Assembly: GCF_032163395.1 (NCBI RefSeq)
Contig: NZ_CP119968.1
Location: 4,986,001-5,050,000 of the forward strand
DNA from: Gloeocapsopsis dulcis
GTDB taxonomy: Bacteria; Cyanobacteriota; Cyanobacteriia; Cyanobacteriales; Chroococcidiopsidaceae
DNA length: 64,000 nucleotides
Reading direction: 5' to 3'
The position numbers and the translations under genes were made by a program. The notes under the pieces are model-generated. The model saw only the letters and a list, made by a program, of their open reading frames with translations, ran no database searches and was not told the origin of the DNA. This document shows positions 3,555-7,161 of the stretch, piece after piece (the first letter of the stretch is position 1; each line of letters opens with the position of its first letter).

Positions 3555-3639
3555 TCTACTCAATCGCCAAAAATCAGCGGTAGGATGGGAATAAGACCAG
3601 TATGGTTGATTTTCCTAGTTCGTACTTAATGTAATTTGG

Positions 3640-4254
3640 ATGACGCCAGTTTTATCGATTCAAGGTTCAGCTACATCACTAAATTGCCTCCCCGAAGGCA
3701 AACTAATTGTCTTGACTGGTCCTAGCGGAGTTGGTAAAGGCACGCTGGTACGAGCGCTGCTACAGCGTCATCCTGAATTGTATTTTTCCATTTCTGTGAC
3801 TACCCGCGCTCCCCGTCCTGGCGAAATTCACGGCAAACAATACTATTTTGTCAGCCGCAGCGAGTTTCAACAAATGATCGAACAAAATAAATTACTCGAA
3901 TGGGCAGAGTTCGCAGGTAACTATTACGGTACTCCCCGTGATACAGTTCTCGAACAAATCTCTAAAGGTAAGTGTGTTCTGTTAGAAATCGAACTCGAAG
4001 GCGCACGACAAATTTGCCAGTCGTTTCCTGATGCGAAGCGGATTTTTATTATGCCTCCCTCTTTAGCAGAATTAGAACAGCGCTTACGCGGTCGCGGTCA
4101 AGATTCTCCAGAGGCGATCGCCCGTCGTCTTCAACGTGCCAAAGATGAAATTAGTGCCGCGTCTGAATTTGATATTCAAATTGTTAATGACGATTTCGAC
4201 ACTGCTTTGGATGCGATCGCTTCTGCAGTGTTTAGCTTTTGTGGTAGCGCTTGA
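3640..4254 (+). CDS. gmk: Guanylate kinase
   Basis: Guanylate kinase converts GMP plus ATP to GDP plus ADP in purine nucleotide synthesis. The P-loop GPSGVGKGT lies near residues 27-35, followed by [17 protein letters not shown], the GMP-binding region, and the lid [12 protein letters not shown]. At 204 residues it has about 15 extra N-terminal residues relative to the minimal enzyme. An internal start cannot be excluded, but the first ATG is kept because no later methionine precedes the P-loop. It probably forms a unit with the upstream DUF370 gene. Downstream it converges on psaL with a shared hairpin between them. Confidence 0.95.
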
Positions 4255-4300
4255 TTGGTGATGACAAGCTAAACAGTATCTCAAGTTTATATCCAACAAA

Positions 4301-4334
4301 AAGGCACAAAGACTACTTAATTCCTTTGCGCCTT
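4301..4334. terminator. Shared hairpin between gmk and psaL
   Basis: The arms AAGGCACAAAG and CTTTGCGCCTT pair with one mismatch across a 12-nt loop. On the + strand a T-rich stretch (CTTTTTAT) follows 6 bases later. It lies between the convergent gmk and psaL 3' ends and could end both transcripts. Confidence 0.45.
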
Positions 4335-4371
4335 AATCGCTTTTTATAAATAATGTCCGCAGGATGCAGTA

Positions 4372-4890
4372 TTACTTGAATATGTTTTGAATTAATTCAA
4401 TGTTGGCTAGGATGAAGTAGGCAACAATTGCACCACCAACGCCACCAATTAAGAAGCCACTTGTATAAGTATTCCAGCCTTCTGAGCTATCAAAGGTATC
4501 TGGAGGATTCGGCACTGTTATAGTAGCAACTGGTTTTGGTGGATTGCTTGCTGCGTACAGCGACATGGCTAGGGTAGAAATAACAACCATGCCTAAAGTA
4601 GACAGTAATCCCGCAATATTGGCTACATCAGTATCGCGTAATGGACCTAACTTGGTAAAAGGACCTATCAGCCAATAACCATGTGCCATACCAACTTCTA
4701 GCCCTCTTCTCAAGGGAGTAATACCAGGGCGATAAGCTGGCAAGTTATTGATAAACCACTTGACTAAAGAAGAATTATTGATTGGTGTTTCCAGATTACC
4801 AATTTGAGGATCTCGTCTTGAAGGATAAACAACTTCTTGATTTCGCGGATCGCTAGGACGATTTTTAGAGGCATCTATTGCTTGCACCAT
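4372..4890 (-). CDS. psaL: Photosystem I subunit XI (PsaL)
   Basis: PsaL is the photosystem I membrane subunit that sits at the contact between monomers and controls oligomerisation. The conserved N-terminus (QAIDASKNRPSDPRNQEVV), ETPINNSSLVKWFINNLPAYRP and GLEVGMAHGYWLIGPFTKLG are present, with hydrophobic segments after it. The start is placed at the second methionine (MVQAIDASK) because that matches the family N-terminus. An ATG 21 bases upstream (4911) is possible. The loop between the last membrane segments is proline-rich (NPPKPVATITVPNPP). The gene follows psaF and psaJ on the same strand after a 328-base gap, so it may also have its own promoter. Confidence 0.95.
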   Translation of the reverse strand: MVQAIDASKNRPSDPRNQEVVYPSRRDPQIGNLETPINNSSLVKWFINNLPAYRPGITPLRRGLEVGMAHGYWLIGPFTKLGPLRDTDVANIAGLLSTLGMVVISTLAMSLYAASNPPKPVATITVPNPPDTFDSSEGWNTYTSGFLIGGVGGAIVAYFILANIELIQNIFK

Positions 4891-5037
4891 ATTTATGCTT
4901 TGGGATCTCATAAGGTAGTGGCATTATTTTATGGTAATAGATGACCCTATTTTTCATACTTTAGTCTTAAATTTAAAAAAATTAATTAAGCTGATCATCA
5001 GTAAAGAGTAGTATAATTACCCGCTTCAAATTAGTAA

Positions 5038-5071
5038 GCGCTATACCATTTTTAATATGGGAATATAGCGC
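5038..5071. promoter_or_regulatory. Hairpin between psaJ and psaL
   Basis: GCGCTATA and TATAGCGC form a perfect 8-bp stem, with an inner CCAT/ATGG pairing and a T-rich loop. It lies in the 328-base psaJ-psaL spacer. It could terminate psaFJ, stabilise its mRNA, or act in the psaL leader. A second weaker stem (TCTATT / AATAGA) lies near 5110-5127. Confidence 0.4.
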
Positions 5072-5218
5072 CTTGTGCAATGAAAGGTAAATTTTTAAAA
5101 AAGAAACTCAGAATCTATTGGCAATAGATAGAGTTTCAAAGTTTAAAAAGCAGCGTTTGTCTCATAGATATCCCAAAAATTTCAAGAGACAAACACTATA
5201 ATTTTAGCCACACTAAAT

Positions 5219-5368
5219 TTATGGCAGTGGATGGAAAAGAAGATCGGGATATAGATAATTAAAGACAATCAACAGAACTGCAGTAAAACTTAACAAAGCA
5301 AAAAGTAGTACTGGTCCTAAAGAAAGATAGCGTAGTAAATAGCTTTGGTTGTCGCCTTTCTTTTGCAT
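5219..5368 (-). CDS. psaJ: Photosystem I subunit IX (PsaJ)
   Basis: A 49-residue single-span membrane protein found by reading the gap between psaF and psaL. It starts MQKKGDNQSYLLRYLSLGPV and ends PDLLFHPLP, the hallmark PsaJ C-terminus. The hydrophobic helix covers about residues 18-40. PsaJ packs against PsaF and helps hold it in the photosystem I core. It lies 36 bases after the psaF stop codon, in the classical psaF-psaJ pair. An AGACTG stretch lies just before the ATG. Confidence 0.95.
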   Translation of the reverse strand: MQKKGDNQSYLLRYLSLGPVLLFALLSFTAVLLIVFNYLYPDLLFHPLP

Positions 5369-5404
5369 GAATCAGTCTCCAAAAACAAATTAATTGAACT
5401 CCAA

Positions 5405-5899
5405 CTAGCGTGGGGAAACTGGAATTTCGTCATCTTTAGCGACTAATTCCCCTGAGAGCAATTCTTTAACAGCTGCGATTGGCCAAGTAAAGCCCGATAG
5501 CATTAGTGGCAGTGCTGTAGGCACGTCAATAATGACTTCTCGCAATTCAGTATTGTCGCGCTTCTTGACTGCTTGGATATAAGAACGTCCTACCCAGCCA
5601 ATCCAACCAGCAATATAAAGAAAGAGAATGCTAGGAATGATGAAGTCACCAGCATGATTAAGACGACCATCTACAATCAAGTGAGGTAAGCCCTCAGGAC
5701 CACATAATTCTTGAGCATAACGCTCAAATCGCTTTTGCCCCGAATTAGGATCGGCAGTCGTATTTCGAGCAGAAGCTGCTCTTTGAATAAACTCTGGAGA
5801 CTCATTACAAGGCACTAGTCCTGCACCAACGGCTAAAGCCTGCGGGGCAAAAGTAAACCATAAACTAATGACAAGAACTAGAGCAAACAATCGTCGCAT
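5405..5899 (-). CDS. psaF: Photosystem I subunit III (PsaF)
   Basis: PsaF is the lumen-exposed photosystem I subunit near the donor site for plastocyanin or cytochrome c6. The 164-residue precursor starts with a signal peptide ([17 protein letters not shown], cut near APQALA), followed by [14 protein letters not shown] and the conserved [15 protein letters not shown] membrane span ([18 protein letters not shown]) follows. The start at 5899 was chosen because AAGGGA lies nine bases upstream and a signal peptide begins there. An in-frame extension to 5986 looks unreal. It leads the psaF-psaJ-psaL block and is divergent from tsaD, with a 215-base shared promoter region. Confidence 0.95.
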
Positions 5900-6114
5900 G
5901 GAATTGTTTCCCTTTATTACAAAACCTAAATTTTGTTGTACGATAAGCAGCTTGGACAAGCAAGACAAGCGCTCACATGGAAGCAATCATACTCTTGCGT
6001 GTGACCCTAGTAAAGTTTGCCGTGGGTAAAGTTTAAGCTACTTAATATAGTTGGATAAATTCTGCTTGTAACTGTTAAATGTTTCCACCCAGGTAATATA
6101 CCTGTTTCACAATT

Positions 6115-7161
6115 ATGTCAACTGTTTTATCGATAGAAACGAGCTGTGACGAAACTGCAGTAGCAATTGTTAAAAATCGTCAAGTTTGCAGTAGTATTGT
6201 TAACTCACAAGTTGCTATTCACGAACAATATGGTGGGGTTGTTCCGGAAGTAGCTTCGCGCCAACATTTAGAAATTATTAATCAGGCGATCGCCCTTGCT
6301 TTTACTCAAGCAAATCTCACTTGGCAAGCAATTGATGGAATTGCGGTAACTTGTGCCCCAGGTCTTGTCGGAGCCTTATTAGTAGGAGTTACTGCGGCAA
6401 AAACCCTGGCAATTGTGCAGCAAAAGCCATTTATCGGCGTGCATCACCTTGAAGGTCACATTTACGCGAACTATCTAAGTGAACCGAGTTTAGATCCGCC
6501 TTTTTTGAGTTTACTAGTTTCAGGCGGTCATACAAGCCTAATCTATGTCAAAGATTGTGGAGTGTACGAAACTTTAGGTGAAACCCGCGATGATGCAGCA
6601 GGAGAAGCGTTTGATAAAGTGGCGCGGTTATTAAAACTTGGTTATCCTGGAGGTCCGATAATTGATAAGCTTGCTCAAAAAGGCAACGCAAGAGCATTTT
6701 TATTACCCGAAGGCAATGTTTCACAACCAAGCGGTGGATATCATCCCTATGATTCCAGCTTTAGTGGGTTAAAAACCGCAGTACTGCGACTAGTGCAACA
6801 ACTGGAAAACACACCACCATTACCAGTAGAAAATATTGCCGCAAGTTTTCAGGAGAGTGTCGCGCGATCGCTCACCAAACGCGCGATCGCCTGTGCGCGA
6901 GATTATGGTTTAAATACAATAACCGTTGGCGGTGGCGTAGCTGCAAACAGCGGCTTAAGACATCATTTAACGACTGCTGCTACCGCAAACAACTTGCGCG
7001 TGTTGTTTCCCCCACTTAAATTTTGCACTGACAATGCTGCCATGATTGGTTGTGCTGCTGCCGATCATCTCGATCGCGGTCACACGTCTCCTCTCACGCT
7101 AGGCGTCCAATCCCGATTACCCCTTACTCATGTCATGCAATTGTACCAAAAGAGAGACTAG
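6115..7161 (+). CDS. tsaD: tRNA N6-threonylcarbamoyladenosine transferase subunit TsaD
   Basis: TsaD (Kae1/Gcp/YgjD) transfers the threonylcarbamoyl group to A37 of ANN-decoding tRNAs. The 348-residue protein has the N-terminal [12 protein letters not shown], the metal-binding [18 protein letters not shown], and [19 protein letters not shown]. The C-terminal [11 protein letters not shown] and DNAAMIG follow, in the usual order. The start codon is ATG directly after a short AT-rich leader. The partner enzyme gene tsaC lies 4.3 kb downstream on the same strand, separated by other genes. Confidence 0.96.

Follow-up and report, generated by a model that had tools for sequence, protein, structure and literature searches.

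PsaL, more than gene order, points to a probably tetrameric photosystem I in the cyanobacterium Gloeocapsopsis dulcis

Introduction

Photosystem I (PSI) has been described as a tetramer in Chroococcidiopsis sp. TS-821 (7QCO; PMC8760143) and in Anabaena sp. PCC 7120 (6JEO, 6K61; PMC6821847), and the entry titles of 7QCO and 6JEO name the tetramer. Trimers are described in papers on 1JB0 (PMC8908432), 6VPV (PMC8428864) and 7F4V of Gloeobacter (PMC9000952), and in the entry title of 5OY0, one chain of which has the sequence of the 4L6V PsaL. Kato et al. (PMC6821847) give two lists of PsaL residues that are kept in tetramer formers and obstruct the trimer, one with L11-P15, R61, N140 and S144 and the other with T58 and F60. 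Semchonok et al. (PMC8760143) describe a TV/T/APNPP loop (CR-V), which they also place in the marine Prochlorococcus/Synechococcus group. According to the same study, the oligomer seen varies with light, and tetramer formation in three cyanobacteria is reportedly induced by high light. A further study (PMC9938196) reports that in iron-limited Anabaena the PsaL-like domain of IsiA2 replaces PsaL and gives rise to monomers, with tetramers still present.

Here we analyse a stretch of 64,000 nucleotides of the Gloeocapsopsis dulcis genome (hereafter the window), which holds the genes psaF, psaJ and psaL. This order (F-J-L), with psaI elsewhere in the genome, was reportedly tied to PSI tetramers by Li et al. 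in 2014 and 2019. An earlier note on the window had predicted a tetrameric PSI from the gene order and from a proline-rich loop of PsaL.

Sequences and methods

PsaL of the window was compared with two overlapping sets of loci (G005, for example, is apparently the genome of L003, Gloeocapsopsis crepidinum). The first consists of the best 80 of 106 candidates, which are the nearest relatives of the window PsaL. The second holds 98 further loci, drawn from the 186 of 386 genomes in which PsaL was found; most genera are represented once, and second copies and some additional genomes are included. Of 185 PsaL domain matches, four with E values exceeding 1e-30, which were fragments in L059, L173 and L215, were dropped; the remaining table of 181 rows covers both sets and the window, some loci holding two PsaL. 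A further 16 psaL stretches served for a check of the N-terminus only.

For a quick tree, 71 of the 181 rows were removed at an identity of at least 90%, and the remaining 110 were combined with eight PDB anchors and the PsaL domain of a fusion protein (see below), giving 119 rows. A careful tree retained 66 of these 110 rows, at less than 78% identity, and the eight anchors (74 rows in total), L176 and the fusion domain being omitted. The anchors 1JB0, 4L6V, 6VPV, 6KIF, 7COY and 7F4V entered as their aligned parts and not as whole chains. An AlphaFold model of PsaL, built on an alignment of 10 rows, reached a mean pLDDT of 48 and was excluded from the evidence; structure comparison was used for entry titles only.

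The psaF-psaJ-psaL locus

Open reading frames and Pfam profiles confirm the arrangement given in the earlier note, with the three genes on one strand and transcribed in the order psaF, psaJ, psaL. The features of the locus are as follows (positions in the window).

tsaD (gcp), 6115-7161, plus strand: conserved upstream neighbour, divergent from psaF; Pfam PF00814
psaF, 5405-5899, minus strand: open reading frame of 164 amino acids with a signal-like N-terminal segment (by eye); Pfam PF02507, E 4e-52
psaJ, 5219-5368, minus strand: open reading frame of 49 amino acids; Pfam PF01701, E 2e-16
psaJ-psaL intergenic stretch, 4891-5218, minus strand: contains short inverted repeats
psaL, 4372-4890, minus strand: 172 amino acids from the homologous ATG; Pfam PF02605, E 1.5e-66
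N-terminal RPSDP of PsaL, 4846-4860, minus strand: alignment counterpart of Anabaena L11-P15
PsaL loop NPPKPVATITVPNPP, 4501-4545, minus strand: between helices 2 and 3, holding the TVPNPP (CR-V) motif
gmk (guanylate kinase), 3640-4254, plus strand: conserved downstream neighbour, convergent; Pfam PF00625

The mechanical open reading frame of psaL is longer (4372-4911, 179 amino acids); the homologous ATG at 4890 is that of 7QCO and 6JEO. No psaI-like open reading frame adjoins psaL, again as noted earlier. In the assembly (5,618,434 bases, 3 contigs), a single psaI match exceeds the family cut-off. It lies at C1:1117081-1117155 next to psbE, about 3.9 Mb from psaL along the contig of 5.3 Mb, or about 1.4 Mb in the opposite direction should this contig be circular. 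G. dulcis thus combines the order psaF-psaJ-psaL with a psaI elsewhere, and its photosystem I locus is an ordinary one of the HCR group.

Far-red PSI of the FaRLiP type involves additional stand-alone paralogues of PsaL and PsaA. A profile search of the genome (E 0.001) returned a single stand-alone PsaL and one fusion, and no second stand-alone PsaL of the trimer or far-red type at this threshold. The PsaA/PsaB family gave three matches, interpreted here as a single psaA and two psaB, and the genome does not fit the FaRLiP type. The two psaB-like genes (L236 and L237; C1:1558262-1560433 and 2772709-2774880) are 99.6% identical over 741 amino acids; one is solitary and the other adjoins the psaA-like match.

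PsaL compared with solved structures

The top solved match of the window PsaL is chain L of 7QCO (E 1.4e-108), to which it is identical at 159 of 172 positions (92.4%). It shares with the TS-821 protein the loop length, the TVPNPP motif, the N-terminal KNRPSDP and the last 13 residues, and differs from it by 13 substitutions. The closest PsaL among the best 80 of 106 relatives is that of G. crepidinum (93%), which is even closer to TS-821. Identity to the Anabaena PsaL (6JEO) amounts to 121 of 170 positions (71%). The two have in common the segment xPSDP, T58, R61, N140, S144 and the TVPNPP loop, and the F-J-L locus of G. dulcis is also that of many Nostocales among the best 80 relative loci. 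In contrast to Anabaena, L11 is replaced by R and F60 by L, both as in TS-821. PsaL of trimers belongs to the same subunit family, yet its identity to the window PsaL, taken over the aligned stretches only, is 73 of 153 (48%) for 1JB0, 69 of 152 (45%) for 4L6V/5OY0 and 75 of 134 (56%) for 6VPV.

Of the features listed by Kato et al., the window PsaL carries a bulky N-terminal segment (RPSDP, the counterpart of L11-P15) as well as T58, R61, N140 and S144 in Anabaena numbering. The PSDP segment is absent from trimer-type PsaL, and position 140 is S in 6VPV and in L197 (a PsaL nearly that of 1JB0), as against N in the window. R61 and S144 recur in many other rows, and these two residues and a loop of 27 residues are found in PsaL outside the tetramer type as well. 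The C-terminus ILANIELIQNIFK lacks the LLENF..VD.I.RG-like pattern of most rows with psaL followed by psaI; judged by our own alignment against these rows, the trimer-type C-terminus (CR-III/CR-IV) is absent.

The loop quoted in the earlier note is present and conforms to the CR-V pattern. Its use as a mark of tetramers holds only in part, as the trimer 6VPV and PsaL rows related to it also have a proline-containing loop of 27 residues: among the 13 rows with divergent psaI and psaL, to which these relatives belong, the loop has 27-28 residues in all 13 and at least three prolines in 12.

Taken together, PsaL of G. dulcis is very likely of the tetramer type, with residues and a TVPNPP loop that would permit one type 1 contact and obstruct a ring of three, such that dimers lead to a tetramer. 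The steric mechanism is that published by Kato et al., applied to G. dulcis by sequence. The bulky RPSDP, T58, R61, N140 and S144, along with the TVPNPP loop, would allow one PsaL-PsaL contact (type 1) and hinder closure of a three-membered ring; PSI monomers would pair via this contact, and two such pairs would join via a weaker type 2 contact to form the tetramer. The 92% identity to TS-821 PsaL suggests that PSI of G. dulcis is probably a tetramer, and the residues named above and the placement in the trees (see below) likewise support the tetramer-type PSI that the earlier note had proposed. The prediction is carried by PsaL itself, more than by gene order or loop. It is an ordinary prediction, close to what is already known, because PsaL of TS-821 falls with that of Gloeocapsopsis. 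The literature searched yielded no native gel, electron microscopy or proteomics of G. dulcis PSI. The prediction adds an extremely desiccation-tolerant strain from the Atacama to the predicted tetramer formers, which is relevant in view of the link made between tetramers and high light.

Phylogeny of PsaL

In the careful tree (74 rows), the bootstrap of which had not settled, the window forms a clade with 7QCO and G. crepidinum (98/98), and a group of 13 rows includes the window and both tetramer anchors (96/91). The rows of the classic trimers, 1JB0 and 4L6V, are set apart in a clade of their own (100/100). The quick tree (119 rows) places the window and 7QCO among three rows (support 99), and unites 49 rows (support 97), among them both tetramer anchors but no trimer anchor. 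The Gloeobacter trimer 7F4V, on a long branch, and L223 came to lie inside a set of 20 rows with the tetramer anchors in the careful tree, a join that was flagged as suspect.

Approximately unbiased (AU) tests rejected the pairing of the window with any single trimer anchor (p-AU 5e-6 for 1JB0, 0.007 for 4L6V, 2e-33 for 6VPV). Grouped tests were contrary to this. Holding the window with 24 trimer-clade rows in the careful tree gave a likelihood 23.1 log units lower (p 0.076, not rejected at 0.05), and holding it with 29 such rows in the quick tree improved on the free tree by 32.2 units (p 0.865). We read the grouped outcome as probably the effect of a poor quick search and of the trimer clade hanging on the window branch in an unrooted tree, but it does count against an unqualified placement. 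A PsaL phylogeny among trimer formers, which the earlier note had named as an argument against its prediction, was not seen: grouped AU tests and 7F4V apart, the window clusters with PsaL of TS-821 and Anabaena 7120 and away from the trimer anchors. It also differs from the trimeric psaL-psaI type in that psaI does not adjoin psaL and PsaL does not group with 1JB0 and 4L6V.

An IsiA-PsaL fusion and iron limitation

About 1.90 Mb along contig C1, an Isi-like cluster (L239:5936-9187) holds in a row an antenna gene (352 amino acids), a gene for an antenna-PsaL fusion, and a flavodoxin gene. The fusion is the following feature.

IsiA-PsaL fusion, L239:7016-8569: 517 codons from a TTG (mechanical open reading frame), with PF00421 at 34-308 and PF02605 at 366-508

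The antenna part exceeds the cut-off of the NCBIfam subfamily TIGR03041. An IsiA-like antenna followed by a PsaL-like domain in one frame is the make-up of IsiA2 of Anabaena PCC 7120 (7Y3F; PMC9938196), and the likeness of the two, PF00421 with a C-terminal PF02605, is one of domains. Chain 1 of 7Y3F is also among the PDB matches of the window PsaL. Unlike psaL, the fusion gene lies outside the window, adjoining another antenna gene and the flavodoxin gene.

The genome encodes an IsiA-PsaL fusion, and such a protein gives monomers in Anabaena; a switch from tetramer to monomer under iron stress is therefore plausible. By analogy, PSI of G. dulcis would probably not be locked as a tetramer, and the fusion is a candidate for a protein that acts against the tetramer in iron-stressed cells. 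We consider it rather likely that the oligomer is conditional, with tetramers and dimers containing PsaL in high light and monomeric PSI-IsiA wherever the fusion displaces PsaL during iron limitation. The row of antenna, fusion and flavodoxin genes, the persistence of tetramers beside IsiA2 monomers in Anabaena (PMC9938196) and the reported induction of tetramers by high light in three cyanobacteria (PMC8760143) argue for such a reading; however, the PsaL domain of the fusion is just 42% identical to the window PsaL (152 aligned columns). A conditional oligomer is compatible with the tetramer explanation.

Gene order across cyanobacteria

Of the 80 nearest-relative loci, 70 show the complete arrangement tsaD / psaF-psaJ-psaL / gmk, which is therefore beyond chance. 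Five loci have F-J-L with tsaD while gmk was not found in the stretch, one has psaJ-psaL at a contig edge, and four have psaL with neither psaFJ nor psaI. As these 80 loci are nearest relatives by design, the rate of F-J-L among them is not phylum-wide.

Across the 181 rows, the order was F-J-L in 114, F-J-L-psaI in 1, psaJ-psaL in 1, psaL-psaI in 26, psaI-psaL in 17, divergent psaI/psaL in 13, and none of these in 9. Hence the earlier statement that most species with trimers have psaL followed by psaI, apart from psaFJ, describes a class that exists (26 of 181), but leaves out the rows with psaI ahead of psaL, with the two genes divergent or with neither neighbour. The N-terminal motif, scored automatically and dependent on the choice of start codon, was found in 103 of the 114 F-J-L rows, in the psaJ-psaL row, and in 6 of the 9 rows without either neighbour; the single F-J-L-psaI row and all psaL-psaI, psaI-psaL and divergent rows (0/26, 0/17 and 0/13) were without it. 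N140 is present in 92 of 114 F-J-L rows versus 1 of 26 psaL-psaI rows.

Nine rows with the F-J-L order fall outside the tetramer-type clade as drawn (L194, L198, L200, L205, L208, L219, L223, L225 and L228), spread over seven family codes; tsaD adjoins in eight of the nine. L208 has psaF-psaJ-psaL-psaI in one run. L219 carries N140 and is the immediate neighbour of the tetramer-type clade in the quick but not in the careful tree; L223, flagged as a long branch, lies inside the wider set of tetramer anchors in the careful tree. Six rows (L062, L074, L077, L079, L204 and L210) have a tetramer-type PsaL, with N-terminal motif and N140, beside neither psaFJ nor psaI; three of the first four are metagenome-assembled genomes (MAGs) of Leptolyngbyaceae, and the contig of L077 measures only 3.1 kb. 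A MAG of Chroococcidiopsidaceae carries two tetramer-type psaL in tandem after psaFJ (L015:5242-6513).

Mapped on PsaL, the F-J-L order changed seven times on the quick tree and six times on the careful tree. In five supported independent pairs, a number that cannot reach significance, the mean agreement of order was 0.0 with the N-terminal motif and 0.2 with N140. In 18 genomes of the other order classes, 17 psaF loci were found; psaL was in the stretch in none of the 17, and tsaD stood beside psaF-psaJ in 14. Two genomes taken as picocyanobacteria (L272, L273) show tsaD / psaF-psaJ / gmk without psaL. Most simply, tsaD / psaF-psaJ would be an old arrangement that psaL departed from or entered on several occasions, and F-J-L would be a mark of lineages and not of an oligomer. 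We infer from this distribution that gene order is a lineage trait travelling with tetramer-type PsaL and not the cause of the oligomer.

The earlier note had also taken F-J-L as a mark of the tetramer. The order is indeed present in G. dulcis, but it is not diagnostic, because of the nine rows outside the tetramer-type clade, the six tetramer-type PsaL without psaFJ, and the lack of a link to the motif in five pairs. For predicting tetrameric PSI from a genome, F-J-L is thus unsuited unless PsaL itself is inspected. A search of published full text under four spellings found no paper on the F-J-L cluster, which is weak evidence.

It would be conceivable that the order is functional in that co-transcription of psaL with psaFJ sets the dose of PsaL and thereby yields tetramers, and F-J-L is indeed kept in 75 of the 80 nearest-relative loci. 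We nevertheless hold this to be very improbable in view of the six or seven order changes, the missing motif association (in pairs too few for significance), the outside F-J-L rows and the psaF-psaJ without psaL beside tsaD in 14 of 17 loci of other order classes. The outside rows and the independent pairs led us to discard gene order as a cause or reliable marker. The psaJ-psaL gap of G. dulcis also speaks against a dose effect, as it exceeds 300 bases and contains hairpins.

That G. dulcis forms a conventional trimer, with gene order and loop as marks of ancestry only, is most improbable. In its favour, F-J-L and a loop comparable in length and in prolines are also seen in other types of PsaL, the relatives of 6VPV among them, and the grouped AU tests failed to reject it. 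Against it stand the 92% identity to PsaL of a solved tetramer, the pairwise rejection of all three trimer anchors, the presence of RPSDP and N140 and the absence of the common psaL-psaI-type C-terminus. On identity and pairwise tests we set the trimer aside, the grouped tests being contrary.

The psaJ-psaL gap

Inverted repeats in the gap are found at 5152-5163/5186-5197, 5113-5120/5122-5129 and 5038-5045/5064-5071, in addition to one of 72% at 5092-5109/5131-5148. The gap may contain a psaL promoter or a processing site of the psaJ 3' end, for both of which it is a candidate. Promoter-like sites in 3600-6600 (9 versus a mean of 6.8 in shuffles) are not clearly beyond chance, and terminator-like sites in the same range number 4 versus 2.7. 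By our reading of the alignment, the repeats (5038-5197) are kept at least partly in G. crepidinum and not in two more distant aligned relatives.

A shortened PsaL in genus g10

Within family f5 (heterocyst-like), the alignment shows PsaL without the N-terminal segment in three genera (L147, L157 and L158). In all nine sampled genomes of one of them, g10 (L147, L241-L248), 46-47 codons separate the GMAHG motif from the nearest in-frame ATG ahead of it, compared with 66 in L252, and in eight of the nine there is no further in-frame ATG, GTG or TTG upstream. It appears from these sequences that psaL of g10 starts about 19-20 codons later than normal, in which case the xPSDP segment would be untranslated. 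If so, the segment proposed to act against the trimer would have been converted to an untranslated leader throughout g10, a conclusion that a non-standard or missed start would undo. The shortened PsaL, if true, would be a natural deletion able to test the steric model of Kato et al. The literature search found no paper on a PSI tetramer in Dolichospermum or a PSI trimer in Aphanizomenon.

As a combined proposition, we tentatively suggest, while doubting that all its parts hold at once, that F-J-L, beside tsaD and often with gmk, is old, present in several unrelated families and independent of the oligomer, that tetramers track PsaL, that the oligomer of g10 may differ, and that the fusion of G. 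dulcis leads to PSI-IsiA monomers.

In L246 of g10, upstream alternatives remain (ATG at 75 codons, TTG at 61). L157 is ambiguous, with ATG at 45 and 65 codons, and L158 has its start at 51. Remnants of KNxPSD stand in frame upstream of psaL in several g10 genomes, and the motif is complete in L243.
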